Position numbers and translations under genes: made by a program
DNA from: a virus
DNA length: 64,000 bases
Virus record (IMG/VR): IMGVR_UViG_3300021605_000004
Span: 1 to 64,000 of that record
Direction: 5' to 3' (one strand)
The notes under the pieces: generated by a model
Seen by the model: only the letters and a program-made list of their open reading frames with translations
What the model was told of the DNA's origin: nothing
Database searches by the model: none
Part shown: one piece after another, positions 2,980 through 44,357 of the stretch
Layout: each line of letters starts with the position of its first letter
How positions within the stretch are numbered: the first letter of the stretch is position 1

Positions 2980-3870
2980 TCAGAAGTCCGGTGTTTTCTT
3001 GGTTTTCTTACTGGCCACTTCCGGCTCCGGCCTTACTTCCGGTTCGGGTTCTGTCGGAGGTACTTCCTCGGCGAGTTGAACGGGTTCTTCGGGCATGGAG
3101 ATTAAAGGCTGTGAGTTTGCCATCTGAGTGGCGTCAAACTTTGGCTTTTCCTCCTCGTCTGAATTTTCAAACAATGCTGCATCGTCAGATGAGTCAATGA
3201 TCACCTTACAGGCCGCATTGATCAAAGTCTTGCGAACCATAGATGATGCGAATTTGTTGTGAACTGCGCCTTTGTCTGCCAGATTTCCCATGCCTTGCGC
3301 CCATGACGTTCTGATTTGCTCTATTGTCATTGGCTCCATGTCGTAGGTGCCATCCGTGAAACTGATAATGGCATAGCCACCACGAATTTTATCTTCGGCA
3401 ATGTTCTCCAGTTTCTGTTCGTGACAGATAACTTTTTTACGTCCGGTAAGCGGATCAAGCGTGTACTCAAATTTGTCCTCCTTATAAATGACAACAGCCT
3501 TCACGTCCACTACCTTCCCAAACCTTCTGGCAAGTGCCAGTGAACCGGCGTACTGGCGCTGCATTACCAATTTGTTCCCCCGTGGAATGAACGCAACCTG
3601 GTGTTTCATTGGGCTGAGTCCAGAAACCACCATATTGAATAAACTGTTCATAATCGACTCCTTGGTACACGACTGAAGCACCGGGAGTCCGGCTTTGTCC
3701 TTCTGTTCGTTCAGCATCAGCCATGCTGACCTGAGTGCATTAGAAGCTGAATAGTTGGGCGGTGGAGTAAGGCCACCTACCGATTCCAGTTCTGTTACCC
3801 GGCTGAGTACAAGTTCCACCATCGGAGTCTCAGCTTTTTTAATTACCTGTGTTGATTTTTCGTCTGCCAT
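2980..3870 (-). CDS. recT: RecT-family single-strand annealing protein
   Basis: A 296-aa protein with the RecT core at about residues 20-225. It includes an LxSCTKESIMNSLFNMVVSGL helix region and the QVAFIPRGNKLVMQRQYAG segment typical of the family. The C-terminal 70 residues are acidic and Pro/Glu-rich, ending in a basic KKTKKTPDF tail. RecT anneals single-stranded DNA during phage replication and recombination. It normally works with a 5'-3' exonuclease; none is obvious next to it, but an SbcC/Rad50-like ATPase lies upstream in the same operon. Confidence 0.9.
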   Translation of the reverse strand: MADEKSTQVIKKAETPMVELVLSRVTELESVGGLTPPPNYSASNALRSAWLMLNEQKDKAGLPVLQSCTKESIMNSLFNMVVSGLSPMKHQVAFIPRGNKLVMQRQYAGSLALARRFGKVVDVKAVVIYKEDKFEYTLDPLTGRKKVICHEQKLENIAEDKIRGGYAIISFTDGTYDMEPMTIEQIRTSWAQGMGNLADKGAVHNKFASSMVRKTLINAACKVIIDSSDDAALFENSDEEEKPKFDATQMANSQPLISMPEEPVQLAEEVPPTEPEPEVRPEPEVASKKTKKTPDF

Positions 3871-4315: not shown

Positions 4316-6256
4316 TTACTTTATTACAAGGTTTTTATCTTTCGACACCACCAGGTTCACCACCTGACACTGTGTTTCAGGTATTTCGTTGGTGCTTTCA
4401 CGATTGTCTATCCACACCGGGCAATACGTATCGTGGTACTTCGACATCGCATTTATGATATCAACACCCGCCTGGATCTTCCCGGCTGAGTTGCAGTCAG
4501 AGTACGGAACGCCACGTACCAGGCATTCACATGTTTCAGCTTGGCCACCGTTTAACTGAGACTCAAACATCCTCCAGCGTACAATCGTAAACATCCCGTT
4601 CACCTTGGCCTCCACTAAATCCATGTGTGACTTGGTAAAGGCTTCAATGGCAAACTCACGACGCTCCAACTCACTGATCTGCTGTGCAAGGTTCTTCTCG
4701 TCTGCAAGCAGTTCATTAAGTCTGGTTTCGGATTTTTTGATTACATCCGTAACGGTAAGCTGCCGGTTCAGGTCGTCAATTACAACCTGGAACTGCGCTT
4801 TCTGCTGTTTCAACCCGTCGATATCCAGTTTAGGTACTTCAAGTATCGACAACTGTAACTTGTCGATCATATCCTTGAGGCTACTGAACTCAACATTATC
4901 TGTTACTGACGGCTTCGGTAACGGTACGGAACTGCCTGCGGCCTTTACGTTTTCTTCGGCTTTTGCTACTTCTGTTTGTGCTTGCTCAATCTGCTTTGCT
5001 ACATCTGTAACCTGGGTGGTTAACCTCGTAACCGTATCGGCATGTGTTTTTCCTTCTGACGAAATAGAAGATAGCCGTAAACGCTTATCGGTATTAAAAT
5101 TCTCCATTAAACTGTTCTGTACCTCGAAGGCTTTGTCTGCATCAAACGGACGCTTACAGGTAGGACATGACAGTTTACTTTCGTCAACCGTTAGTACCTC
5201 ATCGTCAATCGCACCCCATTTGTCACGTAACTGCTTGATGATAGATTGCTCGGATGCTACCTGACGCTCCAGTGACTCCTTGGACAGTTCCAGTGCTTTG
5301 AGCTGCGTCTGCGCGTTCTTCAGTTTCCCGGCAGCCTGGTTCGCCTCCATCTGGCGCTGGTTCTCTTTCGTCTGCCAGTCAGTAAGGATCTCGAACGCGA
5401 TCTGCTGTTGGCGCTTCTTCAGGTCGAAAATCTTAGTCTGGGCAGCTTGCACCTTCTCTCCCTGCTCCTGATACGATGCCACTTGGTCCTCAATCGTCTT
5501 TTCGATTTCAGATATACTGTTCTGGTTGGACTTAATCGCTGCCTTTATCTCACTTTCGTTGATCGGATCCGGTGTGGCGCGCCTCACTTCATCAACGCGC
5601 GAAGGAATCAGGTTCAGGTCGTCTTGCAGCTTCTTCTTCAGCACAGCAATCTCCTTTTTATATTCAATCAGCTTCTTGCCACGGTCCATGATCGCCTTGA
5701 TATCCGACTGAACATCCTTGGATAGCGAAGTCATTACCTCTTTCAGCTCAATCTTTCCGGCCATGGTGACAAGGACTTGGCGACGATCCTGCCACTTCAT
5801 CTGGTTGAAGTATAAAGTCGAAGTCAGTAACTTGAACAAGGACTCACTGACGATACCGTCAATCTTATTTTTATATTCTGTGGCAGATTGCGGAACATTA
5901 TCGACATAAAACAGCGTTTCATGGCCCGTAAGATCCGAAGTATCACTGCCTCGACGCCTCGTCCACTTTTCGCGGTAAACCCTCTTTAACGTGATCTCTG
6001 TGCCATCTACGGTCAAAATACCCTCAACACTGTGGTCGATCATCGGGATAGCCTTGCCATTTTCCAAAGTCTTTATCTCAAAGTCTTTGCTGTCGTGGCT
6101 ATCTTTACCGAAAAGGAGCCATGTAAACGCGTCAAAAATGGTTGACTTGCCTGATCCATTCTCACCATGTATGTTACTGGTGTGGTTAAACTCAACCTCA
6201 AGGGATTTTACACCCTTGAAGTTGGTTAGGATTAGTTTTTTCAGTTCGATTCTCAT
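4316..6256 (-). CDS. SbcC/Rad50-like ATPase with CxxC zinc hook
   Basis: A 646-aa SMC-type protein. The Walker A is GENGSGKST (residues 31-39). Two long coiled-coil arms flank a CPTC zinc-hook motif in the middle (followed by KRPFDADK). The C-terminal lobe has a Walker-B-like VWIDNRES. It is shorter than cellular SbcC (~1000 aa), as is usual for phage versions (compare T4 gp46). No SbcD-like nuclease is seen beside it. The role is probably DNA-end processing with RecT. The start overlaps the upstream TGA by 4 nt. Confidence 0.85.
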   Translation of the reverse strand: MRIELKKLILTNFKGVKSLEVEFNHTSNIHGENGSGKSTIFDAFTWLLFGKDSHDSKDFEIKTLENGKAIPMIDHSVEGILTVDGTEITLKRVYREKWTRRRGSDTSDLTGHETLFYVDNVPQSATEYKNKIDGIVSESLFKLLTSTLYFNQMKWQDRRQVLVTMAGKIELKEVMTSLSKDVQSDIKAIMDRGKKLIEYKKEIAVLKKKLQDDLNLIPSRVDEVRRATPDPINESEIKAAIKSNQNSISEIEKTIEDQVASYQEQGEKVQAAQTKIFDLKKRQQQIAFEILTDWQTKENQRQMEANQAAGKLKNAQTQLKALELSKESLERQVASEQSIIKQLRDKWGAIDDEVLTVDESKLSCPTCKRPFDADKAFEVQNSLMENFNTDKRLRLSSISSEGKTHADTVTRLTTQVTDVAKQIEQAQTEVAKAEENVKAAGSSVPLPKPSVTDNVEFSSLKDMIDKLQLSILEVPKLDIDGLKQQKAQFQVVIDDLNRQLTVTDVIKKSETRLNELLADEKNLAQQISELERREFAIEAFTKSHMDLVEAKVNGMFTIVRWRMFESQLNGGQAETCECLVRGVPYSDCNSAGKIQAGVDIINAMSKYHDTYCPVWIDNRESTNEIPETQCQVVNLVVSKDKNLVIK

Positions 6257-7820: not shown

Positions 7821-8225
7821 ATGGGGACAATTATACATTTGAAGATGAAAGCAGCCCGTGAATCGTTAGGAATAACGCAGGTTGCAGCATCCAAAGAGGC
7901 AAAATATAATCAGAGCCAACTTTCACTGATGGAAAGCGGCGAGACGACATTTATCCCAAATAACTATCTGTCGTGGATGGCAAAGCATGGCGCGGACCTG
8001 AATGGCATATTCAATCCGGACGTGTCGCTGGAAATGTATAAGGATATGTGTACCGTAGCTTCTGAGAAGTTATCTCATCCGCCGGTGGACACAAGCCATA
8101 TTTGCCAGAAGTGTGAGGAGAAAGATCACCAGATAAAGACACTGGAGCAGTATGTGGACGATCTGAGGTTTATGATACGTAAGCCGGTCAACCCTCCTGA
8201 AAATACGAGTGATCCTGGATCATAA
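7821..8225 (+). CDS. XRE-family repressor (CI-like)
   Basis: A 134-aa protein. Residues 5-60 form an XRE helix-turn-helix (MKAARESLGITQVAASKEAK, then QSQLSLMESGE). The C-terminal half holds a CQKCEEKDHQIKTLEQYVDDL helix, probably for dimerisation. It has no LexA-like peptidase domain. It is the only rightward gene in this region, divergent from the early operon and convergent with (overlapping by 38 nt) the integrase. That arrangement fits the lysogeny repressor. Confidence 0.8.
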   Translation: MGTIIHLKMKAARESLGITQVAASKEAKYNQSQLSLMESGETTFIPNNYLSWMAKHGADLNGIFNPDVSLEMYKDMCTVASEKLSHPPVDTSHICQKCEEKDHQIKTLEQYVDDLRFMIRKPVNPPENTSDPGS

Positions 8226-9402
8226 GCGCGTTTTCTTCCTTGCCGATACGGATATATTTGCGGAATGATTCGTCTGTTTTCCAACCGCCAACCATCATTA
8301 TAGCCTTCTGAGGTATCCCGGCCTTGAGCATATTGCTGGCCGCACTGCGCCTCATTGTGTGACTGGACACCAATTCATACTTATTAACCACCGTCGTTAC
8401 CAGCTTACCGCCTTTAGTCTTTGTCACCTGAACATTGTCAGTTATCCCGGCTTTCTTTGCGATAGCCTTTAACGCTTTATTGGTGGACTGATTCGACGGA
8501 GCTGGTGGCAGTCCGTCCGGGTTATCCTCCAGTATTTGTTTGACGACCCAATGCAGCGGTACAACCACATCCTCGCCGGTCTTCTGGTTCTTATCCCACA
8601 TCAGGCCATCACGGACGCTGTTGGGCGTAATCTTTGAACTGTCACTAAACCTCAGTGCCGTGAATGCAGCGATCATGTTCCTGTCGCGGACGATGGACTG
8701 TTTCTTAGGCAGGTTAATCACGTACATCTTCAGCAGCTCATGTACCGTCAGGTATATTGTGAACGCATCCTCTCTTGGCTTGGTGTATGCTCCACCTTTA
8801 TAATCGGTGTTGCGGTGTAGTCCCTGGTCTTTCGCCACGGTCATTAATTCACGTATCACTCCGACATTCTTGCCGATATAATTTATCCCGGCGCCTATGG
8901 TTCCGTCGGCCATTTTAGTACGCTCCAAATACGCTTGGTATTTCTTAAACCATTCATCGTTGATATCGCCAAAGTCTTTTGGGCCATTGTACCCTTTAAG
9001 CAGTTTTAATATCGACCGGTACACCTCAATGGATCCTTCCGGCCGGTATTCAGCACACTCAACAATAAACCGTTCAATGAACTGGACGAACGTTTCCTTT
9101 TTGCCGCCATTTTTTATATCCCGTTCGATGGCTGTCTTTAGGACATTAGGCGTTATATTTGCAAAGTCGGCTTTGAGTGACAGGTGAACCTCCCTGGCGC
9201 GTGACTTTAACCGTTCAAGGTAAGTTGTCAGAGTGGCCGCTGAAGGAGCATTGGACCGTGGGAGTTGTTTTGCCTTGTTCCAGTTATCCGGGTGGATAGT
9301 TTCGCCGGTGGATATCTTAACACGTCTGCCGTTCATATAGCAGGTTAAGAAAATAAGCGTCTCGGACTTGGCCGATGGCGACTTTAAGGTATAGGTAAAC
9401 AT
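8188..9402 (-). CDS. int: Tyrosine-type integrase
   Basis: A 404-aa phage integrase of the Bacteroidota type: an N-terminal arm-binding domain, a SAM-like core-binding domain (about 100-200) and a C-terminal catalytic domain. The catalytic set is visible as R251 (TALRFSD), H348 and R351 (HTMRR), W374 (GGWKTDE, replacing the second His) and Y383 (FRKYIRI). The start at 9402 is preferred over 9501 because a TATCTTTG box lies at 9423-9430. It catalyses site-specific integration and excision. The probable attP lies just upstream. Confidence 0.93.
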   Translation of the reverse strand: MFTYTLKSPSAKSETLIFLTCYMNGRRVKISTGETIHPDNWNKAKQLPRSNAPSAATLTTYLERLKSRAREVHLSLKADFANITPNVLKTAIERDIKNGGKKETFVQFIERFIVECAEYRPEGSIEVYRSILKLLKGYNGPKDFGDINDEWFKKYQAYLERTKMADGTIGAGINYIGKNVGVIRELMTVAKDQGLHRNTDYKGGAYTKPREDAFTIYLTVHELLKMYVINLPKKQSIVRDRNMIAAFTALRFSDSSKITPNSVRDGLMWDKNQKTGEDVVVPLHWVVKQILEDNPDGLPPAPSNQSTNKALKAIAKKAGITDNVQVTKTKGGKLVTTVVNKYELVSSHTMRRSAASNMLKAGIPQKAIMMVGGWKTDESFRKYIRIGKEENALMIQDHSYFQEG

Positions 9403-9422
9403 AGCTGATGAATTGGTTGATG

Positions 9423-9430
9423 CAAAGATA
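9423..9430 (-). promoter_or_regulatory. Integrase promoter -7 box (TATCTTTG)
   Basis: A perfect TAnnTTTG box on the minus strand, about 20 nt upstream of the integrase ATG at 9402. The nearest TTTG is 22 nt further up, a slightly long spacing. Confidence 0.5.
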
Positions 9431-9703
9431 CAACGGATTCTCGCCTTTTTTACAAATTCAAATAAATATTTTTCTATGCCAGTGGTGATAAGGCTTTCCA
9501 AATATCAGAAACTGCAAAGTAAAAGGACTCAGGTGCGGAGTTGGATGCGGTTAGAGGTGCGGTTTTTAGAAAGAATTTGACATATTTATCATATCGCATA
9601 TATGATGTTCGTAGAAATTGAGCCTCAAATATATAGAACTTACAATAAAAAAAGCCTCTGATATAATATAACACAATAAAAAATGAAAATCATATATTTC
9701 TTC

Positions 9704-31930: not shown

Positions 31931-32266
31931 CTATGATATCATCGAAAGTGCTTGTACTGCCAATACTTTAGCCTCAACCCTGAAAGCCATGAATTCAACC
32001 ATTTCGGTTTCATGGGCCGGGGTATCGTTGCCGTTGTGGATGATCGCTAATTCATCGTCAGATGAATACTTGCTTCGGATAATGGCTGAAACGATTTCGC
32101 CTTTGGTTGGCTGGTCTGATACCTTCACCTGGTCGTATTCAAAGGCTGTCTTTTCAGGTTGCCCCGGCATCACGGGAACATTTACAACCTGTTCGTTGAA
32201 GTTGATCAATCCACCGCCCTGAAGTTTCACGGCGAGAGGTAATTTATTGTCTGATTGTGTTTTCAT
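31931..32266 (-). CDS. DGR-operon protein, tail-assembly-like
   Basis: A 111-aa protein. Its middle and end (KGEIVSAIIRSKYSSDDELA ... MVEFMAFRVEAKVLA) match the general pattern of small tail-assembly proteins downstream of fibre genes. The ATG overlaps the RT stop by one base (TAATG). It does not look like the four-helix accessory protein Avd (too beta-rich at its start), so it is not called avd. It might be a chaperone for the variable fibre (inference). Confidence 0.55.
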   Translation of the reverse strand: MKTQSDNKLPLAVKLQGGGLINFNEQVVNVPVMPGQPEKTAFEYDQVKVSDQPTKGEIVSAIIRSKYSSDDELAIIHNGNDTPAHETEMVEFMAFRVEAKVLAVQALSMIS

Positions 32267-33252
32267 TATGCTGCTATTTTAAGTTCAAATAATGGTAAAT
32301 ACTTATTCCATAAAATCTTGCTGTCGGACACTTTAACCCATCCGTAATAACTCATGATCACAGACCGCTTGTTCCTGATCCGGTCAATCATGGCAACCCT
32401 CTTTTTGAATGCTTTTGCGATTGACTTTCTCATGTATGTCTTGCAATGATCGAATTTGAAGCCGAGAAAATCAACCCGTCGTTTGCGGACAGGAAATACC
32501 TGATAATTCTTTTTGAGAAAAAGCCTGAGTTTGCTTTCAAGGTAATACTCGATCTTGACCAACAAATACTGCAAATAATCTTTATCCTGATGAAGAATAA
32601 CCATGTCGTCACAGTAGCGAAAGAAATTTTTGATCTTCATTTTTTCCTTTAACCAATGATCTGCATAGGCTAAGTAAAGGTTTCCGAAATACTGAGACAG
32701 GTAATTTCCGATAGGAATTCCTTTTACTGAATCTATGATTTCATCCAAAAGCCAAAGACAATCCTTGCATTTGATTTTCTTGCGAATGATCTGTTTCAGA
32801 ATCGCATTGTTGACAGAAGGGTAAAATTTCCTTACGTCGATTTTGAGACAAAACATTTTCCTGCTGTTACGCAAAACGTTTTCTACTCTCACCTTACAGG
32901 AATGAACCCCCCGGCCTTTGATCGACTGATACGTGTCACGAATGAGAATTTTCTTCCAAATCGGTTCTAAGATTTGCAGGATTGCATGATGCAGGATTCT
33001 GTCAGGGAAATAGGGGAGTTTTGAGATTTCACGTTCTTTCCCTCTTTCGATTTTTTTATAAGTTTTGTACGCTGAGTTTTTGAATGTTTTTTGTAATAAC
33101 ATTCGTTGCAATCTTTGTAAATAGTAATCCTCATGCCGATCAACTTGCTTCACTTCGCTATAATGGGTCTTCTTCCTGCGGGCTTTCTGATGCGCAAGTT
33201 TCAGATTATTATAGTCTGCGATCTTTTCAAATAAATTACCTACTCTTTTCAT
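32266..33252 (-). CDS. DGR reverse transcriptase
   Basis: A 328-aa RT with the conserved blocks in order: LPYFPDRILHHAIL (about 79-92), YQSIKGRGVHSC (108-119), KIDVRKFYPS with Asp139, GIPIGNYLSQ (178-187), YCDD (213-216) and VDFLGFKF. The GIPIGNxxSQ form of motif 4 is typical of DGR RTs and differs from group II intron and retron RTs. It has no maturase or endonuclease domain. A good Shine-Dalgarno (AGAAGGAG) precedes the ATG, unusual in this genome. The template repeat lies 102 bp upstream. It makes the adenine-mutagenised cDNA that replaces the variable repeat. Confidence 0.95.
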   Translation of the reverse strand: MKRVGNLFEKIADYNNLKLAHQKARRKKTHYSEVKQVDRHEDYYLQRLQRMLLQKTFKNSAYKTYKKIERGKEREISKLPYFPDRILHHAILQILEPIWKKILIRDTYQSIKGRGVHSCKVRVENVLRNSRKMFCLKIDVRKFYPSVNNAILKQIIRKKIKCKDCLWLLDEIIDSVKGIPIGNYLSQYFGNLYLAYADHWLKEKMKIKNFFRYCDDMVILHQDKDYLQYLLVKIEYYLESKLRLFLKKNYQVFPVRKRRVDFLGFKFDHCKTYMRKSIAKAFKKRVAMIDRIRNKRSVIMSYYGWVKVSDSKILWNKYLPLFELKIAA

Positions 33253-33354
33253 TTACTCCTTCTTAATTTGTCCAGAACCTTCGGTTGCCCTACCAGCACT
33301 TTAACGGACGTCCATATATTTTGCCAAGAGGCAAGGATATTTAACGCATTCAAG

Positions 33355-33467
33355 AAGTACAACTGAGTGCCAATGTTCTGATTCGCATTGCCGGAATCGT
33401 TATTCAGATTCCAATTGAAAGCCCCGGCATTCGTACCATTGTTCGCATTGCCGCCGAAAAACGCCAC
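33355..33467 (-). repeat. DGR template repeat (TR)
   Basis: 113 bp, aligning without gaps to the VR at 33550-33662. In coding orientation the TR is rich in AAT/AAC codons (a reading in frame gives FFGGNANNGTNAGAFNW). I count 19 substitutions between TR and VR over this length: 18 at TR adenines, one at a T. No start codon or gene belongs to it; a 72-aa open frame over it is a by-product. Confidence 0.95.
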
Positions 33468-33521
33468 TCTTCGCTAAATACCCTATATTTTAAAGAACAA
33501 AAAAATACGCTTCGCATAATG

Positions 33522-33537
33522 TGCGGCAAGTGCCGCA
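33522..33537. promoter_or_regulatory. Hairpin/cruciform downstream of VR
   Basis: tgcggc-aagt-gccgca forms a perfect 6-bp stem with a 4-nt loop. It lies 12 bp downstream of the VR end in coding orientation. A similar GC-rich hairpin is needed for efficient homing in the Bordetella phage BPP-1 DGR; the same role is inferred. Confidence 0.65.
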
Positions 33538-33545
33538 ATTTCTTA

Positions 33546-35030
33546 TTAGAAGGACAACCGAGCGCCAATGGTCCGATCCGCCATGCCGGAACCGCCACTC
33601 AGATACCAATTGAAAGCCCCGGCACTCGTACCACCGTACGCAGCGCCGCCGAAAAACGCCACCCTCCAACCCGAAGCCTGATAATAGTAGTCCGATGGGT
33701 AAGTAGAGGACGAACCTCCAACCGATGCAGGGAGTATAACCCTTGAAGAGTTTACAAGGGTTTTCTGCCAACCGTCAGAAGCGGCAAGGGTTACGCCAAG
33801 ATAGTCGTAACCTTCGCTTGTATTATCAGCCCAAACTGCTGAATTGTTACTTACATAAGGGATATTATTGTTAATGTTGATACCGTCAACGATCTTGTAA
33901 ATATGTCCCCAAAAGTTTGAAATTCCCCTGTACTTTGAATATCCTGTTGCTGCGACCGTTGCACTTGATGTACTTGCGGCGGCGGCATTCTGCCCGGTTG
34001 CATTGCCTATGCTGTTGCCTAATCCCGTGGCCACAATTGGGTAATAATTGTTATATGCAGCCCAATCAGAGACATTAGTAATGCCCGAAATGATTAACTG
34101 AGAATTAAGCGTACCGTATTCGACAATGAAAAGTATCTGAATGGCGTTCACTAAATCGTAATCCATTTGCCGCCATCCGATTCCCCTTTTAGCTGCCATA
34201 AGCCTGCCATTTGCCCTGGTAAAGTTTGTGACGGGCCTGAAGCCAGACACACTTGAAAGCTTATCATTAGTGGGAGTAATTGAAACCCCGGCCTTATAAT
34301 CCCTGTATGCACTATCAGTAGTGGCATCCCATAATACAGCTTCATACGCCCCTATGTAACGGTAATCCTTGTACGCCCCATCTTTGATAAATGCTGGATG
34401 CCGGGTGTAACCTGGTATGCTGTCAAGAGAGATGTTCCAAATATGGTAATTCCCGTTTTTTTGGTACTGGTAATAAAACTTGGGAATCTGTACCATTACC
34501 TGTCCGTCTGCCCCGGTAAGTGTTGAAGCTGCCCCGTTTTCCTTGTACGCCCAATCCGTTGCACTCAGGTAGTATTGAACCGCCCCGGCATCAGATAGAA
34601 CACAGCCGCGCATTTTACTCTGAACAGGTAAAAGCAAGTCACCGGGAGAAGCACCCAACGTTTGACCGGCCAATGTTCCCTGTCTGACATAGGTATCAGT
34701 TACCTCATTCCATGCAAGGCCCTGAAAGTTGGTGTTACTTGAAGCTGAAAGGTTGATCCAGGAAGTGCCGTTGTAGTAATTTAACGTGTGATCTGTCTTG
34801 GCATAGAGCATGCCCTCCTTCGGTGATGATGGGGCCGACGCAGATGGAATTAATTTGATGGTGTCTGTTGATATTTTAGGGATTATTGCTGTTCCCGTAA
34901 AAGTCGGTGATGCAATCGGAGCAAATTTTGCATTTGCCTGAGTCTTAGAATATGGAATAGTTTTATAATCAGTCTGTGCTGATACGTAAAATGAAAGTAT
35001 AGCGAATATTAGGATAAGATACTTTTTCAT
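33546..35030 (-). CDS. DGR target: variable C-type-lectin-like fibre protein
   Basis: A 494-aa protein. It begins with a Sec signal (MKKYLILIFAILSFYVSAQ). A fibre-like part with KFAPIASPTFTGTAIIPK follows, then a DGR-type lectin/formylglycine-enzyme-like C-terminal domain. That domain's end (GWRVAFFGG ... GAFNW ... IGARLSF) is the VR and covers residues 457-494. Fifteen of these residues differ from the TR reading, almost all at Asn-type codons. It probably binds the receptor. The signal peptide leaves open whether it acts on virions or on the lysogen surface. Confidence 0.92.
   Translation of the reverse strand: MKKYLILIFAILSFYVSAQTDYKTIPYSKTQANAKFAPIASPTFTGTAIIPKISTDTIKLIPSASAPSSPKEGMLYAKTDHTLNYYNGTSWINLSASSNTNFQGLAWNEVTDTYVRQGTLAGQTLGASPGDLLLPVQSKMRGCVLSDAGAVQYYLSATDWAYKENGAASTLTGADGQVMVQIPKFYYQYQKNGNYHIWNISLDSIPGYTRHPAFIKDGAYKDYRYIGAYEAVLWDATTDSAYRDYKAGVSITPTNDKLSSVSGFRPVTNFTRANGRLMAAKRGIGWRQMDYDLVNAIQILFIVEYGTLNSQLIISGITNVSDWAAYNNYYPIVATGLGNSIGNATGQNAAAASTSSATVAATGYSKYRGISNFWGHIYKIVDGININNNIPYVSNNSAVWADNTSEGYDYLGVTLAASDGWQKTLVNSSRVILPASVGGSSSTYPSDYYYQASGWRVAFFGGAAYGGTSAGAFNWYLSGGSGMADRTIGARLSF
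33550..33662 (-). repeat. DGR variable repeat (VR)
   Basis: 113 bp at the extreme 3' end of the target gene; the last base of the repeat is in the final Phe codon before TAA. The conserved 5' block (GTGGCGTTTTTCGGCGGC in coding orientation) and the central AATTGG are unchanged relative to the TR. Confidence 0.95.
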
Positions 35031-35607: not shown

Positions 35608-38600
35608 CTACCGAATGACCCTTGCGCTGCGTTTCTTTTTCAAAGGCGTTTTTTCAGCATTGGATATTCGTGTCATTAGTTTGTCAACTGTTCCGGCACC
35701 TGGATACCCATACATGGTAGCTAATACTAAATGAACGCTTCTTGCAGCATTCCAAGCATCGTATTCTGATTTAGAAAGAGATTCACCTGCCATTACTTTT
35801 TTACCAATGTTATACAAACTTCCACCTGCGGCAGTTACTGTTTGTAACATTGTTTGAGCTGCCATAGTGTACTGCAATAAGGCATCAAAAACCTTCGCTG
35901 CGTCGGTATATCCATTTGTCTCAACAGGCCTAACGTAAAATGCTGCAAGTGCATAATTGTTTAAGTCTTTCAGCCACTCAGGTTTCTTATTGGCAGGATG
36001 TGTGGAATTTATAATAGAAAGTGCAGTTATTTGTGTTGCCCTATTTATATTACCCCAGGTGCCAAGTGATAATTGCATCATGCTTGCTGCCGGGATAGCA
36101 TACCAAAATGCCGGGTCTTTTAATTTGGATATTCCCTTGAGTGCATTATCCTTTAATTTATTGGCTGTTTCTTTATCCCATAAATCAACAATCTGGGCAG
36201 CAATATAAGACAGTCCGGCCATTTGAACTACACCTATAGATGCAAAGGCTGTTTGTGAAGCAAGGAATGATCCTATTTTTTTTGTTGCCTCAGCTCTTCC
36301 CTCATTGGTTCCAAGCGTTAAGTTTTTCACTTGTTTTATAAAACGCAAACTTTCTCTTATTTGCCATGTCTGCATGTAGTTAATCATAATGTCACCGGCA
36401 CCACCATCCTGTGCCTTTTTGACAATCTTTTCCATGGATGGGAACGTGTCATATGCCATCCACTTTGCTTCTGCTGATGCTTTTGCAAATTGATCCATGT
36501 TGGCACTCTTATACTCTGGATCGGTAAGCCACTTGTTTGTGTCAAACTCTTTCCCGGTAAACTCCAGGAACGCATGATTGAACTCGTTCAGGAATATCCT
36601 TTTTTGCGTTGCTCTATCGTTAAATGACAACACATATAATCCTTTCTTTGTTGCGTTATTTGAGTCGCTATACTCAGAATAATATCGTTCTGCTTCCCTA
36701 AACCCGGATTCATTATGAAGAACCTCAAGTGTTTTATTTTCCTCTTTGTCGAGTTTCAACATCGTATCTGCGTAGTCTTTCCATTGGGATACAGGCAACT
36801 GTCCAAGTGCAGTGAACTGGTTCCCTGCGGTATCTTTTATCAACCTCGTTGGATCAAGTAACGATACGCGTCCCATTTTAGCTCCCGTAGTTAACGCCTT
36901 AATCAATATACGGTTTCCTACACCCCTGTTTATTTTCGTGGCATATACATTTGTAAATCTGGTTCGCAGTCCTTCTGCGAGTTCAGATACAACTTGAACC
37001 TCTGGTATTGATAATGATTTCTTTGGAGCCTCGCCCGGAACACCGCTAACCTCTGTTTTGTTTTTTAGTGTGTTCAATGCCCTTACTGTATTGTAAAGAG
37101 GGTCAGCCATGTAATAATTTAACAGATTGGTAAGCGTATATTGCCTAAACTTATCTGTGGCACCCATTTTAGATATGTGATAATCAAATGTACGCTCGTT
37201 TACATTTCCTGATTTTGTATGAGGTGCAGTTCTGTCAAGCAGCGCAGAGTCTATGAATTGTTGAGCGTTCATAGCATCATCAACAGGCTTGTCGAAAATA
37301 AAGAATGGATCATAAAAACGTAAAGGTGTAAATGGGATATTCCTTTTTGTAGCATTTACCTTTTGTTCGTGTTGTTGTGCATCGTATCCCTTTTGTAAAT
37401 CCCTTAAAAATTGAAATAAATTTTTAGACAACAGGTGTGATACATCTTTATAAACCTCCTCATCTGTTTTTTCAAGTTTAAGTATAATGTCCTTCCCTCC
37501 ATTCCTATTTCGTAAATTCTGATAAGCCTGCCTGTCTAATTTCCTTGTCTCAGCATCATACCCTTTGCTGTTTTGAGCATCCGCAATATATCTTTTACCC
37601 CAATCCGATTCCGCTATATCCCAATAACTCAAGACCTGTTCCTTTGTCAGGCCGGTAGCCTGCATGATGCTTTGAAGTTTGGCCTCTGGAATATTGGCCT
37701 GCCATGTCATCATTACCCTCAGTGCATTGACCTCCCTGTCTGCAAGTTCTTTTGATTTATTGGTTTTAAATTCAGACCTAAAGGTTTTGGCAAACGGTGA
37801 AGATGTAAGTGCTGTGTGAAATAACACGTCTCGTTTTTTGTTTAACATCTCAATGGATGTTAAAAGTGCATTGTTGAAAATTTCAAATACCGGATGTGAG
37901 TGCTTTCCGGCAATGCCATATTTTTCATCAATGTCGGTCATGTCTTTTTTACGGGAAAGGTCTTTAAGCAATTCACCTTTGTTTTCTTCATTCAATAACC
38001 TGTCTCGGACATATTTTGATTTTTCTGCCGCAGCCCTTATCACATTTATAAAATCCACGTCGATAATACTTGCACGTTTTAACACGTCAATAGACGAAGC
38101 TATGTCAATAAGTTTGCGCGGCATATTGCCATAAGTCAACTGCTCGACAACTTTAACATAAGTATCCAACTCTCCAAGCGAAAGATTGTCAATGGATTTA
38201 TCATTTGAATTTTTACGGAGCCACGCAATGACTTCTCTTTGTTCTGGTGTGAAATTTTCCCAGTCAACAAACTTCCAATTATCTTTCGCCTGGTATTTGC
38301 TTATGTATTTAAAGTATTGCTCCGACTGTTGCAGTAACTTTTCTGTCATTCCCTCAATACCCACCTCGTTCAGTTTGGTAAATAGTCCCTGGACACTTTC
38401 ACCATAGACGGCATCTTGATAATTTTTAGCTAAGTCGCTGTATTTATCAATTACATTTCCATTCTTGTCGTAAAATTTACCATCAGAATACGTAATATCT
38501 TCCTGTGCCATCAATCTGTCGATCTTATTTTTGACCAGCGACAGGTTCTTTTTTAATTGGATTACATCATCTATGCTGCTTATATTGGCTGGATCTATCT

Positions 38601-41600
38601 TAATCAAGTCTTCAACACTTCCAATCAATCCGTCCATGGAGTCCGCACTAATCATCCGTTCAACACCTGAATCGGAAAAAATTTTGTCCATTTCATTGCG
38701 GTAATCATCGAAGAACTTTTGAACATTCTCGACATTTGATACTTTTTTACGGGTTAATTCTTCCGCTATTGTCCTTAAATCAGAAAGCATCTGATCTGGC
38801 ATGTCAGCAAACTTATCTTTAGGAATTGCCTGTAATTCTTTAGCCCATCCCAGATAACCTTTTCCTGTTCCTTTTGAAAATTCATTCTTTTTTATAAGCC
38901 TACCAATCTCCTTCTGTAATTCTGCTATTTCATTGGCAGTTTCCTTAAACGCTATGTCTGTTGTGGCTTTTTCTATGTAATTCAAGGCTTTTTCAAGATC
39001 GCGATACGATGTGGCGTTGTTTACTCTGCGAAGTAAGGTTTTTGTTTTCTGTCCGGTTAGTTTTTTTATCACATCGGAGTTGTCTTCAATGGTGCTTGAA
39101 ATTTGAGACCTTACATCATCTATTGTTTCCAGTTCGCTTCGCAATGAACCTGCATTGTTTTTAAGTCCTGTTACTTCCTTGCTGCGGGACTCAGCTCCTT
39201 TTTCAAACGCTTCTGTCTTTGTCTTTCCTTTGATTTTTTGTTCAGCCTGGAATAATTTGTCTTTTAAGTTACGATAGTCCTGTTTCAGTTTATTCCTTAT
39301 ACCAACAGTTTCCTCAATGTCTTTTTGTACTTTTTTAGAATCAAATTCCTTCCATTGCGGTAGTCCATTGAACTTTGATATGAGCTTGCTTGTTTCTTCT
39401 TGTGGTAAATTTTGTTCTTTGCACAACCTTTTAATCTCGGCCACACCTTTAGATACAGCTTCTGCAACAGAGCCTCCAAGTCTCACGGCTTCTGACGCGA
39501 CCCAAACACCGCCTTTCATAATTTGAGCCTGATATGGTAAGAATGCCACCATTGTCATATTGTTGACGGCATCATATCCTTGCTTTTTTATTCTTGCTGC
39601 AAGTTCATCGGCCTTGTCTTTTATGGATTTCTTTGTGACTTCTTCCGGTGTCGGAATACGCTTCCGTTCTTCGGCCATCTGTTTCCTGATAGGCTCAGAC
39701 AGTTTATTCATCTCCTGCATGGTGATTTCACGACGGGCAAAACGCTCCTGGATGGCGTTCATTTGCTCGTCAAGGGACGGAACTTTTACTGGTTCTGGTT
39801 CGTGTTTGGCTGCGGCGGGTTCTGAGATGGTAGGCTCGGTGATGAGTTCGTCTGCTTGTTTGATTGCCTCAACGAGTCCAGCTTCATCTGCGCTTTCTGC
39901 TTTGCGTTCAATATCCGCTGTAACGCTTTCAAGTTCGTTAACGTCCTTGTCTGTAATTCGTTTGATTGTTCCATCGCTTACCTGTGTTTTTATTTCTTCG
40001 TAAATTGGTTTAAATTCAGGTATTCCAGCCATATCCGGGAAAAGATCAGTTCCATCTTTAACGCCTTTGCGTGTTTCAATTCTTTTCTTTACACATTCGA
40101 TAAACTGCTCACCTTTTGGTGTTATGGAATATTCTCCATCGCCAAAAGAAGATACATAACCTTTTTTATCTAATGACTTAAATAATTTTTCCTTTATTTT
40201 GTCCTTAATGGTTATTACCTCTGTTCCATTTTCGGAACTTATAGATTTTAAATCCATGTCCTTTACGGTAGAATACAACATCGACGCCTCCATTGGCTTC
40301 ATGTCTGTATTAAGTCCACTCACTACATCTTCTACCGCTTTAACTTGACTTATACTTACCTCTTTATGTGGCTCAATTATCTTACCTCTATTTCCTTCAG
40401 TGGGAGTGACTGGTTTTTCGGCAACAACCGATGGTTCTTCCTTTGGTACTTCGATCGGGTTTACGGATTCAGCCTTAGTCTCTGTGATAGGTGCCTGCAT
40501 CTCTACAGGCACCTTTTCTTCGGATATAGGCTCACTTACTTGCAGCCGCCCTTTTTCTTCTTGCCCATTTTCGATAGGTATTTCTGGTTTGACTTCCGAA
40601 GGCTTAACCGCTGAGGGCGGGGTAATAGCATCTTCAACTGCCTTGACAAGTTCAGGGTTACTCCCGTCTGCCTTGGCCTTGTGATAGGCTTCGGATATTG
40701 ATTGATTTGTGGTTTTTATTTCTTTAACCCACGGTTCGTTGTAATCAGAAAGTTGATTTTTAGTTATCTCGATACCGATTTTAGGGGCAATTTCATCGTT
40801 TATCTTTTGAATTATTTCTTCCGTTGTTAAATCTTTTGACTTCCCGCTATCAAATATTTCATTTTCAATATCATCCCATATCTTTTTAATTTGAGGTATT
40901 GTTCCTTTGTTTGTTTTTAACCTATCGAAATATATTTCTCCTTCGGGAATTATCCTTTTTGCAGAAACAACATCTCCATTAGGCAATACAACTCTGATTT
41001 CTTTCGTACCACCCCTCCACAACATCGCAATATCTTCTATTGAAAATATTGAATTGTCAGGATGAGTATGTATAATAATAGACGGTTTTTCTGGTTCCCA
41101 ATTTACTCCTGCATTGGGAGATATGATGCCCTTATCTGATTCTAATTGGGTACTTATAATATTTCCTTTTTCATCAGTTACAACTGCCCACTCACTTTGC
41201 CTTCCATTATTGGCAATTCTATCTAATTTCTCAATAGATTTAGGGTTCTCTTTACCTATTTCGTCAAGTTTATTCTGCACTTCCCCCCCCGCCTGCCGGA
41301 CGGGTTCGGGGGTAGGCTCAACCGGCACATCCGCAGGCTTGTCCTCCGCTGCGGTCGGAGTTTGTTTTACTGTGGTAACTATTTTATTAAATTCCTGTAC
41401 GGCCTTGGTTTCGTTCTGGTTTCTTTCCAGTGGCTCTTTATCTTTTGCTTCATTGACTTCATTGAGATCAATACCTGCGGACTTGGATTGTTCCACAACC
41501 TCTGCCTTTTGCTGAAGTGTTAATTCTGCTGATTCGTTGTTTAATTTTGCGTCTTTAATGACTGAATATGCACGTATCGCTTCTGAATTAGCTTCTTCCA

Positions 41601-43083
41601 TTGTGGCATAATCGACAGATGTAACCACCTCTCCTTTGTTATTGTTGGTCGTTACATTGAATTTTTCTCCAACAGGAGTAATAACAACGCCATCAATCGC
41701 AGGAATAACACTCGGCCTTATACCCTCAGTAGCCCATGCAATCTTAATTTTTGCACTTTGAGGTACTTGTGGATCTTTTAAAAACGTTTCAGGCGTTTCA
41801 ATCCATTTTGTTTCAGCGCCCTCACCCATAGACCTGAGTTCTTCGGGTGTAAATTCTATCTTAAACTCTCCTTTATTGGCCTTGTCAGACGTGAAATTAT
41901 TTGATTTTATAAATTTCCCGGCCGCATGGATTCCTTTTAGTCCACCAAGAGTTGCGAACGACATGATCCAGTCTTCGTTCGTAATATCCTTCCATTTTTT
42001 CCCTTCAAGCATAGCACCACCAGTAACAAAGGCCACATTTTCTACACCAAATCCTGTTGTGTTAATGGCTGCCTTTGCCGCCTTCTCAGTAAGACCTGAA
42101 AATGCTTTCGTTGCGGCCTTACTTGCCATCGCAGTGCCATACCCTATACCACCCACAATGCCACCAAGTATAGATCCCTTACCAAACGCTTTTGCTGTTT
42201 GGCCCCAGTCCACATCGTTAGGGTCGGCGCCATCTCCAATTTGCGTCAATACATCTCTTGCCGCATCATACGCGCCTAATGCGCCAGCCCCTTGTGCAGC
42301 CGACTGTGACAGTACGGACATCGGATGAGTGACAATATTCTTAGCCGTCTGTTTGATGAACTCCTTTGCTGCGGTCTCTGTCATGCCTTCTTTTACTGCA
42401 ACGGATACCGCTTTTTTTACAGCGGATTTTGCAAGCATGCCTACACCAGCTTTAGCAACACCTCCACCAATAGACCCGCCAGGTCCGAATGACGGCAAGT
42501 CAATTACCAGTGACGTGAACATGGATGCAACTTTCTCCGGTGTGCTGGGCTGGTAGTCGGTAATGTCAGTAGTCATTATAGGGCGTCCCTCTTTGGCTTT
42601 ATAAGCCATTCCTATCAATGAATTATTTAACCCATCAGCTAATATGTAATCAAATGAAGATTCTGCTGCCTTTTTATCCCAATCCATGAACGGTTTTGAC
42701 GTTCCTTCTTCAATGTTTTGCAGTTTTATTTCTGCAATGTTCGGCGGATTGTCAACTACTGATGCTGGACTTTGAGTAGATGAAGGTACGACGGGTGACT
42801 CCACTACGGCCTCGCCAGATAAGGATGATCGTGAAGGACTCTGGCTTTCGAATGGTTGTAACGTTACATCGCCAGAACCGGTAGGTTCTTTTTTTTTTAA
42901 TGTCCAGTTGGATTCGAACTCATTATATCCACCAACGTCCAGTTTGTTTTGAGTAGCAAAGTCGTGAAAACTTTTCCTGTTTTCCGGCTTCTCCATTCCG
43001 GTTTTAAATGACTGGTAATCGCCAATATCCAATTTATTGGACACCGCAAAATCATATAACGACTTTAAGTTTTTTTCGTCCAT
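35608..43083 (-). CDS. Giant internal virion protein with JAB-like domain
   Basis: 2491 aa, starting MDEKNLKSLYDF; ATG 43083 is chosen because it overlaps the previous stop by one base (TAATG). Residues 9-60 contain two copies of a LYDFAVSNKLDIGDYQSF-type repeat. Glycine/alanine-rich, membrane-like helices follow (about 205-400). A JAB/MPN-like motif IHTHPDNSIFSIED has H672, H674, S681 and D684. Residues ~1150-1700 are long coiled coils. The C-terminal ~800 residues are helical. Its size and place before the nozzle/ring genes fit an ejected internal protein. The function of the JAB-like domain is unproven. Confidence 0.75.
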   Translation of the reverse strand: MDEKNLKSLYDFAVSNKLDIGDYQSFKTGMEKPENRKSFHDFATQNKLDVGGYNEFESNWTLKKKEPTGSGDVTLQPFESQSPSRSSLSGEAVVESPVVPSSTQSPASVVDNPPNIAEIKLQNIEEGTSKPFMDWDKKAAESSFDYILADGLNNSLIGMAYKAKEGRPIMTTDITDYQPSTPEKVASMFTSLVIDLPSFGPGGSIGGGVAKAGVGMLAKSAVKKAVSVAVKEGMTETAAKEFIKQTAKNIVTHPMSVLSQSAAQGAGALGAYDAARDVLTQIGDGADPNDVDWGQTAKAFGKGSILGGIVGGIGYGTAMASKAATKAFSGLTEKAAKAAINTTGFGVENVAFVTGGAMLEGKKWKDITNEDWIMSFATLGGLKGIHAAGKFIKSNNFTSDKANKGEFKIEFTPEELRSMGEGAETKWIETPETFLKDPQVPQSAKIKIAWATEGIRPSVIPAIDGVVITPVGEKFNVTTNNNKGEVVTSVDYATMEEANSEAIRAYSVIKDAKLNNESAELTLQQKAEVVEQSKSAGIDLNEVNEAKDKEPLERNQNETKAVQEFNKIVTTVKQTPTAAEDKPADVPVEPTPEPVRQAGGEVQNKLDEIGKENPKSIEKLDRIANNGRQSEWAVVTDEKGNIISTQLESDKGIISPNAGVNWEPEKPSIIIHTHPDNSIFSIEDIAMLWRGGTKEIRVVLPNGDVVSAKRIIPEGEIYFDRLKTNKGTIPQIKKIWDDIENEIFDSGKSKDLTTEEIIQKINDEIAPKIGIEITKNQLSDYNEPWVKEIKTTNQSISEAYHKAKADGSNPELVKAVEDAITPPSAVKPSEVKPEIPIENGQEEKGRLQVSEPISEEKVPVEMQAPITETKAESVNPIEVPKEEPSVVAEKPVTPTEGNRGKIIEPHKEVSISQVKAVEDVVSGLNTDMKPMEASMLYSTVKDMDLKSISSENGTEVITIKDKIKEKLFKSLDKKGYVSSFGDGEYSITPKGEQFIECVKKRIETRKGVKDGTDLFPDMAGIPEFKPIYEEIKTQVSDGTIKRITDKDVNELESVTADIERKAESADEAGLVEAIKQADELITEPTISEPAAAKHEPEPVKVPSLDEQMNAIQERFARREITMQEMNKLSEPIRKQMAEERKRIPTPEEVTKKSIKDKADELAARIKKQGYDAVNNMTMVAFLPYQAQIMKGGVWVASEAVRLGGSVAEAVSKGVAEIKRLCKEQNLPQEETSKLISKFNGLPQWKEFDSKKVQKDIEETVGIRNKLKQDYRNLKDKLFQAEQKIKGKTKTEAFEKGAESRSKEVTGLKNNAGSLRSELETIDDVRSQISSTIEDNSDVIKKLTGQKTKTLLRRVNNATSYRDLEKALNYIEKATTDIAFKETANEIAELQKEIGRLIKKNEFSKGTGKGYLGWAKELQAIPKDKFADMPDQMLSDLRTIAEELTRKKVSNVENVQKFFDDYRNEMDKIFSDSGVERMISADSMDGLIGSVEDLIKIDPANISSIDDVIQLKKNLSLVKNKIDRLMAQEDITYSDGKFYDKNGNVIDKYSDLAKNYQDAVYGESVQGLFTKLNEVGIEGMTEKLLQQSEQYFKYISKYQAKDNWKFVDWENFTPEQREVIAWLRKNSNDKSIDNLSLGELDTYVKVVEQLTYGNMPRKLIDIASSIDVLKRASIIDVDFINVIRAAAEKSKYVRDRLLNEENKGELLKDLSRKKDMTDIDEKYGIAGKHSHPVFEIFNNALLTSIEMLNKKRDVLFHTALTSSPFAKTFRSEFKTNKSKELADREVNALRVMMTWQANIPEAKLQSIMQATGLTKEQVLSYWDIAESDWGKRYIADAQNSKGYDAETRKLDRQAYQNLRNRNGGKDIILKLEKTDEEVYKDVSHLLSKNLFQFLRDLQKGYDAQQHEQKVNATKRNIPFTPLRFYDPFFIFDKPVDDAMNAQQFIDSALLDRTAPHTKSGNVNERTFDYHISKMGATDKFRQYTLTNLLNYYMADPLYNTVRALNTLKNKTEVSGVPGEAPKKSLSIPEVQVVSELAEGLRTRFTNVYATKINRGVGNRILIKALTTGAKMGRVSLLDPTRLIKDTAGNQFTALGQLPVSQWKDYADTMLKLDKEENKTLEVLHNESGFREAERYYSEYSDSNNATKKGLYVLSFNDRATQKRIFLNEFNHAFLEFTGKEFDTNKWLTDPEYKSANMDQFAKASAEAKWMAYDTFPSMEKIVKKAQDGGAGDIMINYMQTWQIRESLRFIKQVKNLTLGTNEGRAEATKKIGSFLASQTAFASIGVVQMAGLSYIAAQIVDLWDKETANKLKDNALKGISKLKDPAFWYAIPAASMMQLSLGTWGNINRATQITALSIINSTHPANKKPEWLKDLNNYALAAFYVRPVETNGYTDAAKVFDALLQYTMAAQTMLQTVTAAGGSLYNIGKKVMAGESLSKSEYDAWNAARSVHLVLATMYGYPGAGTVDKLMTRISNAEKTPLKKKRSARVIR

Positions 43084-44357
43084 TATTTCGGCCTCCATGT
43101 TTTGTTCGGCGTGGTGGAAACTGGTTGCTGTTTAGTTGGCGGTTCTACTGTTGCTCCGAACTCTCCGGACTCAGGAGAATCCCATCCATCCAGTCCTGTT
43201 TTTCTGCCTTTCAAGTCAGTCATAACGGATCTTGCCACTGTGGGAACCGTAACATTGATAGAAGGACTGCCTGCCGGATCGCCTTTTGGTTTTCCTTGAA
43301 CAGTCATCCACGCCTGTCCATTACCGGAATGAATCTGTATAACATCGGCATTTTCTAAGTTTAAGTCAGTATAATTCCCATCAGCACCCTTAACTTTTAA
43401 CGTGCCAGTCCATTTCGGCTTGCGTGACAATCCGGAAAGATCCCAAACGTACCCATCGGCATCAGCATCCCTTGGTATTAATTTTATTCCCTTGAAATTA
43501 CCACCTTGTCCACCTCCGTTATTTATTGTTGTATGTGGTTGTGCTACATTTCCACCCCACGTCTTGTCGTCCTTTCTGAACTTTTCAGCATAGTCCAGTG
43601 CTGCTTTACGTGCCAACGTTTCACCACCTCCGGTTTGTGACATCCAGAAGTTGCGCCATTTTTGGTTGTAATCAAATAAACTTGTAGCCGTTGGGATAGG
43701 ATTAAGTTTTTCAGTATTGTACCGTTCCATTCCTTCCTTCAGTACACCTCTGTCTGTTTTGGCTCCTTTAAGCGCCGCATCAAGGTCTCCACTCATGGAT
43801 TTCCAGTCGTAAGGTTTGGAACCGACGTAATTATTATACACTGACCGGGCAATAGGAATATCATTGATGCTTTGTGCGCCTTTTGTTTTTGTGTCAAGGT
43901 CTTTTACGAACTGCTTGTATTCTTCCTCAGTAATCGTTCCGGCACGTAAGTCCTGTGTCGCCGCCTGCAACGTCTCATTATAATCCTTCGAAAGTCCTTT
44001 GAGCGCCGTTACCTGGCCGATAAGTTTCTTGTATGCCTGATTCTGCTGTAATGTCTGATCGGCGTTAAGGTTCAGGCGGTTTAGTCCAGTTTGATTCTTG
44101 TAAAGTCCTTTTGCGTACTGGATATAATCGTTAATGGCTTTGTTGGCAAGGTTCTGGTGAGTGGCGTCAATATCATCCGTTTTCAGGTCGGCCATAGTCT
44201 TGGCCACCTGTTCGGCCTGTAACCGCTGAAGGGTTCCTTTTGGATCTTGGAACGCGGCAATGGTATTGATAAAATTCTCAGTACCCTGTGGATCGGATAC
44301 CGGCTCCGGTGCTGTGAACGGATCGTACTGCCGTTGGAAGGTTATGTTTCGGTTCAT
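43083..44357 (-). CDS. Internal virion / tail-associated protein, unknown
   Basis: A 424-aa protein starting MNRNITFQRQYDPFTAPEPV. Residues 25-200 are mostly helical, Gln/Lys/Asp-rich (KTMADLKTDDIDATHQNLAN). A linker with a glycine patch (NNGGGQGGNFKG) follows. A beta-rich C-terminal domain (VWDLSGLSRKPKWTG, then IQIHSGNGQAWMTVQG) has a Pro-rich tail. It is coupled to the giant protein downstream, so it may be an internal or ejection partner. No family is recognised. Confidence 0.65.
   Translation of the reverse strand: MNRNITFQRQYDPFTAPEPVSDPQGTENFINTIAAFQDPKGTLQRLQAEQVAKTMADLKTDDIDATHQNLANKAINDYIQYAKGLYKNQTGLNRLNLNADQTLQQNQAYKKLIGQVTALKGLSKDYNETLQAATQDLRAGTITEEEYKQFVKDLDTKTKGAQSINDIPIARSVYNNYVGSKPYDWKSMSGDLDAALKGAKTDRGVLKEGMERYNTEKLNPIPTATSLFDYNQKWRNFWMSQTGGGETLARKAALDYAEKFRKDDKTWGGNVAQPHTTINNGGGQGGNFKGIKLIPRDADADGYVWDLSGLSRKPKWTGTLKVKGADGNYTDLNLENADVIQIHSGNGQAWMTVQGKPKGDPAGSPSINVTVPTVARSVMTDLKGRKTGLDGWDSPESGEFGATVEPPTKQQPVSTTPNKTWRPK

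Follow-up and report, generated by a model that had tools for sequence, protein, structure and literature searches.

An avd-less diversity-generating retroelement with a covarying spacer RNA and a tail receptor-binding protein as its target in a probably temperate phage

How does a diversity-generating retroelement (DGR) manage with a template, a reverse transcriptase and no avd gene? The question is raised by one locus in the window, by which we mean the whole 64,000-nucleotide stretch of virus DNA that was analysed, and our answer, held with high confidence, is that the phage, probably a temperate one, carries here a complete avd-less DGR of the Wu 'lineage 3' type, with the phage's tail receptor-binding protein as target. 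With no avd to help it, the lineage offers a natural way of testing whether reverse transcriptase and a structured RNA suffice for adenine mutagenesis and retrohoming. As accessory-free DGRs go, this one is ordinary but clean. To the known avd-less lineage we add clade-wide covariance evidence for an RNA in the spacer between template repeat and reverse transcriptase (RT), and a reassignment of the gene downstream of the RT. The features discussed are as follows.

31931..32266, minus strand: 111-aa gene, not Avd but a member of a phage family linked to tail fibres; gene start and RT stop overlap
32266..33252, minus strand: DGR reverse transcriptase, 328 aa, with PIGNYLSQ and YCDD (phrog_1423, 2e-100)
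33253..33338, minus strand: TR-RT spacer RNA, resembling Rfam RT-17 (RF03020, 35.5 bits, below the gathering cut-off of 40.4; covariance model R1, 74.2 bits)
33353-33371, minus strand: IMH*, the TR counterpart of IMH, GGCACTCAGTTGTACTTCT, at its presumed position
33355..33467, minus strand: template repeat (TR), a gap-free match to VR with 29 A; maximal repeat 33353-33470
33522..33537, minus strand: inverted repeat TGCGGC-ACTT-GCCGCA, ~10 nt past VR and directly after the stop codon
33548..33566, minus strand: probable IMH at the 3' end of VR, GGCGCTCGGTTGTCCTTCT, at its presumed position; three TR/VR differences here recur in relative L001
33550..33662, minus strand: variable repeat (VR), covering the final ~38 codons of the target gene; maximal repeat 33548-33665
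33546..35030, minus strand: target gene, a tail/receptor-binding protein of 494 aa with a C-type lectin (FGE-type) domain and the VR at its C-terminus (phrog_5302, 6e-89)

An earlier, sequence-only reading had described TR and VR as gap-free 113-bp copies with 19 differences, 18 of them at TR adenines, and both the alignment and the recount agree with it. The repeats align without gaps on the minus (coding) strand at an offset of 195 bp, and the differences comprise 12 A>G, three A>C, three A>T and a single T>G. The TR has 29 A among its 113 nt, for which the hypergeometric probability of at least 18 of 19 falling on adenines is 1.7e-12. Extended to its full 118 bp, the repeat has 20 differences, 19 at A. 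Chance similarity, or an ordinary tandem duplication that has since diverged, might be entertained for copies that lie just 195 bp apart, but the adenine bias refutes it and the same architecture recurs in 149 loci, so that we give this explanation next to no credence. No further TR-like copy was found in the 66,688-bp record, where the match at non-A positions was 1.00 for TR, 0.99 for VR and 0.49 for the next best segment. T>G accounts for 35 of the 76 non-adenine differences in all TR/VR pairs collected, far more than any other change; the window and its relative L001 have one each, both beside a mutated A in an AAT codon.

The VR occupies the extreme 3' end of the 494-aa tail protein gene and reaches into its stop codon. 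The three 3'-most adenine differences, which turn GTQLYF in the TR into GARLSF in the VR, are the same in L001 and are probably fixed differences between IMH and IMH* as opposed to fresh mutations, which leaves about 15 of the 18 adenine differences ascribable to mutagenesis. At the Gln/His-to-Arg position among them, 117 loci have Arg in the VR, which the search itself required, and the TR of 97 of these codes for Gln or His; in most of these loci the codon changes from CAC/CAG to CGC/CGG.

The sole close relative found, L001 (IMGVR 3300025376_000002), has a cassette 86% identical to that of the window at the DNA level over 1970 bp; a search by TR/VR DNA pattern yielded no others. Positions 4041-6987 of L001 correspond to 32266-35030 of the window and hold the DGR cassette along with ~415 residues from the C-terminal end of the fibre. 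Beyond this shared target C-terminus, L001 matches the window's phage in one distant gene only (38% identity). Since the two phages are mostly unrelated outside the cassette, the cassette appears to have moved with those ~415 residues, which suggests that fibre tip and mutator are exchanged between phages as a module. L001's own TR and VR differ in 15 of 118 columns, 14 of them at A, so that variation in this relative is adenine-directed and not of the non-adenine kind that the sequence-only reading had named as evidence against it. The two TRs differ from each other in three columns, and at each of these the VR agrees with the TR of its own phage. Mirrored changes of this kind are what repeated copying from TR to VR predicts and are hard to explain otherwise; they point to such copying since the two phages split, and the DGR looks to have been recently active.

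The enzyme required for such copying appears intact. The best solved relative of the reverse TRANSCRIPTASE (RT) at 32266..33252 is PDB 8ub7 (E=2.6e-36), listed just as 'Reverse transcriptase', which we take from its 328-aa length to be the bRT of phage BPP-1. In the RT alignment D139, D215 and D216 are invariant and both PIGNYLSQ and YCDD are intact. The RT earlier recognised as DGR-type, with YCDD and adjoining the TR, is borne out by these motifs, its phrog_1423 match and its nearest structure, and the mutated YCDD that might have spoken against an active enzyme was not seen in relatives. The RT is 93% identical to that of L001 and 42% identical to that of crAssphage LMMB. An unrooted RT tree with moderate deep support places it with LMMB, a member of published lineage 3, and away from BPP-1, whose RT forms one clade with that of phiARM81mr (support 100/96).

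The element could also be a relic, its VR diversified in the past and the machinery now inactive. What sequence comparison shows is copying in the recent past, and decayed DGRs do occur among the relatives (cr111_1 and S-EIVl, below), but an intact RT 93% identical to that of L001, TR changes that have already reached both VRs and a spacer RNA scoring 74 bits all argue against decay, and we consider it unlikely. A recently active element is the reading we retain.

The target protein, as modelled with AlphaFold2, has a pLDDT of 80, with the C-terminal 400 residues mostly above 90. Foldseek returned TaqVP first (E=1.7e-11), followed by Mtd of BPP-1 and, weakly, TvpA. TaqVP (5VF4), the DGR variable protein of a Thermus aquaticus prophage (PMC6328139), is the best match of the target both by structure and by PDB sequence, and the matches to it and then to Mtd support the lectin fold, as had been proposed when the VR was assigned to the last 38 residues of a lectin-like fibre protein. 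The Thermus element resembles ours in this protein but possesses an avd gene, which the window's element lacks. With a TR/VR pair, an RT whose catalytic motif is intact and a predicted lectin-like target all present, the earlier description of the DGR as complete holds.

It had also been remarked that no avd-like gene is visible, and this too is upheld: the NCBI Avd model NF033474 has no match in the window's record (66,688 bp, which may be incomplete) or in 55 related records, while it detects Avd in BPP-1 and phiARM81mr as positive controls at E ~1e-32. The accompanying view that the missing avd and the compact VR-TR-RT layout are unusual does not survive. Viral contigs, genome contigs and phage records together yielded 178 loci where an RT of this kind is present, whole or in part. 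A TR/VR pair was detected in 149, by a finder that required at least 75% of mismatches to fall at A, so that the clade-wide adenine fraction is not independent evidence; the order is VR-TR-RT, as first described for the window, in 144 of the 149, and the remaining five appear to have mis-set RT starts. Lineage 3 DGRs lack avd, about a quarter of all DGRs have no accessory homologue, and crAssphage LMMB shows the order TG-VR-TR-RT without avd (PMC7290462); given this precedent and the order shared by the relatives, a missing avd is typical of the lineage. The window shows the target-TR-RT order and the absence of avd by which Wu lineage 3 is recognised.

Comparison with known systems places the element more closely. 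It resembles the crAss-like DGRs, LMMB included (PMC7290462), in its TG-VR-TR-RT order, its lack of avd and its lectin tail protein, and its RT shares with that of LMMB the avd-less side of the tree; it differs from them in that its 66.7-kb record also encodes an integrase and a Flavobacterium/Cellulophaga-like terminase, and in having cassette DNA and a target C-terminus in common (86%) with a mostly unrelated phage. With BPP-1 it shares adenine-directed transfer from TR to VR into a C-type lectin tail tip, a homologous RT and a structured RNA between TR and RT. BPP-1, however, has avd between VR and TR and a spacer RNA of the RF03022 type, whereas the window's element has no avd and an RT-17-like spacer that RF03022 does not match.

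This spacer is where the analysis yields most. RF03020 (RT-17) matches over its full length at 33252-33338 (E=5e-5), and the spacers of two relatives, L046 and L035, score above the gathering cut-off that the window's spacer misses. Its elements are a hairpin, TTGCC-TCTT-GGCAA, and a long-range stem of AGUGCU with GGUUCU, on which a GG/CC hairpin sits as a cap. RNAalifold on 38 aligned spacers recovered 10 pairs, nine of them with compensatory changes on both sides; 98.2% of alignment cells pair, and covariation is 0.668 as against 0.247 in shuffled alignments and at most 0.154 in slid ones. A single-sequence fold of the window's spacer is no better than its shuffles (z=0.30), and the case for the structure is thus one of covariation. 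A covariance model, R1, found the RNA in 90 of 92 loci and in 83 of 97 sources, the latter including six RT-less or control records; overall ~95% of related loci have it, with the qualification that the 38 sequences from which it was built, the window's included, come from loci that are also among those counted. Matches are nearly always one per locus, immediately before the RT, and the model finds none in BPP-1, BI-TP1, phiARM81mr, MetMV or phage005a; DGRs of the Avd type lack this RNA. One viral contig (L192) carries two copies, at 3221-3310 and 5907-5996, possibly indicating a second TR. In S-EIVl (L031, 6129-6301) the spacer RNA is kept beside a 26-residue RT start, and cr111_1 (L200, 3619-4056) retains a C-terminal RT remnant; both are decayed DGRs. 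The model offers a means of finding DGRs with a decayed RT, such as S-EIVl, or with undetected TR/VR, and it provides a concrete object for mutation.

The BPP-1 spacer adopts a fold, brings in bRT-Avd and primes cDNA synthesis (PMC12875486). By analogy, the spacer RNA described here is the best candidate for the recruiter of the RT and is likely to be the docking and priming element where Avd is lacking. We envisage that transcription of the minus strand would yield an RNA with the TR and the folded spacer; that the RT would bind the structured spacer, probably with no protein helper, and copy the TR with errors opposite adenine; and that the cDNA would then replace the VR, guided by IMH homology at the 3' end, so that the surface loops of the C-type lectin would be re-randomised and host recognition could change. 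An unrecognised accessory may nevertheless be encoded elsewhere in the phage or by its host. We would go further only tentatively, with rather more doubt than belief: throughout the avd-less lineage, an RT-17-type spacer might by itself recruit the RT and prime cDNA, and the TR-RNA-RT block might travel as a cassette and insert between a tail-fibre gene and the partner gene that follows it. If so, one RNA and one enzyme would make a minimal mutator, doing the job of the BPP-1 spacer and Avd together.

The space between VR and TR, where avd would lie, is occupied in some relatives. At 13 loci a small protein (~77-128 aa) is encoded there that belongs to either of two families, one marked by KFSDFAEE (L120, L130, L007, L011) and the other by DDGSLxFLKI (L063, L064, L070, L074, L079, L083, L114, L148, L172). 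Neither is present in the window's VR-TR gap, and it is possible that they are lineage-specific accessories. Other loci with a gene in the gap mostly hold a second target-like reading frame there. Loci of the Flavobacterium/Pedobacter/Chitinophagaceae type (e.g. L047, L054, L061, L160) have such a gene, of ~122-154 aa, between the first VR and the TR; one TR may serve two targets in these loci, whose TR/VR pairs are only 64-90 bp long.

The gene most readily mistaken for an accessory is the 111-aa gene behind the RT, which is translationally coupled to it and could be read as a new DGR accessory replacing Avd. In ~190 loci an iterative HMM search found 89 members of the family, and almost all of them begin 3-40 nt ahead of the RT stop codon; a tblastn search of 50,697 phage records had matches behind two RTs only, those of cr10_1 and cr50_1; the 111-aa protein used singly had no relative among viral contigs. 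Members also occur, however, directly after tail genes in records with no RT at all (MetMV and Porphyromonas phage005a), as a second copy in cr50_1 that follows a tail gene without an RT, and in two Bacteroidales loci (L210, L211) with no RT within 1.5 kb. In cr111_1 the small gene is whole although just the C-terminal third of the RT is left, and about half of clade loci (e.g. cr6_1, cr60_1, cr52_1, cr56_1, cr115_1) lack the gene. The predicted structure (pLDDT 92), a beta-rich N-terminus and three helices, resembles only other phage proteins, one with DUF4376; the suggested check of this gene as an Avd/HRDC homologue by structure prediction thus gave a fold that is not Avd-like. Since family members occur without any RT, the gene is not a necessary accessory, and together with the fold they lead us to reject it as Avd and to judge a new accessory role very unlikely. 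The gene is best read as tail-fibre-linked, possibly with a role in fibre assembly, the TR and RT having been inserted between it and the fibre gene. The gene behind the RT should not, on this evidence, be taken for an accessory.

The inverted repeat past the VR is kept in L001, where the VR-TR spacer is identical at 76 of 77 columns. Its stem is 6 bp and its loop is not GRNA; it may correspond to the target hairpin of BPP-1 or act as a terminator. As a clade-wide feature, a hairpin of the BPP-1 type after the VR was rejected, a stem of at least 7 bp being found in only six of 149 loci.

The phage had earlier been called a temperate Bacteroidota phage. An integrase was found at 8188-9501 (PF00589, 5.7e-11), in keeping with that call, and together with a small HTH gene it supports a temperate life, which we regard as probable. 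The terminase is 23-27% identical to those of Flavobacterium and Cellulophaga phages, and a Bacteroidota host is plausible because the RTs and terminases nearest to its own come from Bacteroidota and their phages. In the structural region of the window, an open reading frame of 2496 aa (35608-43098, minus strand) possibly encodes a large virion protein.
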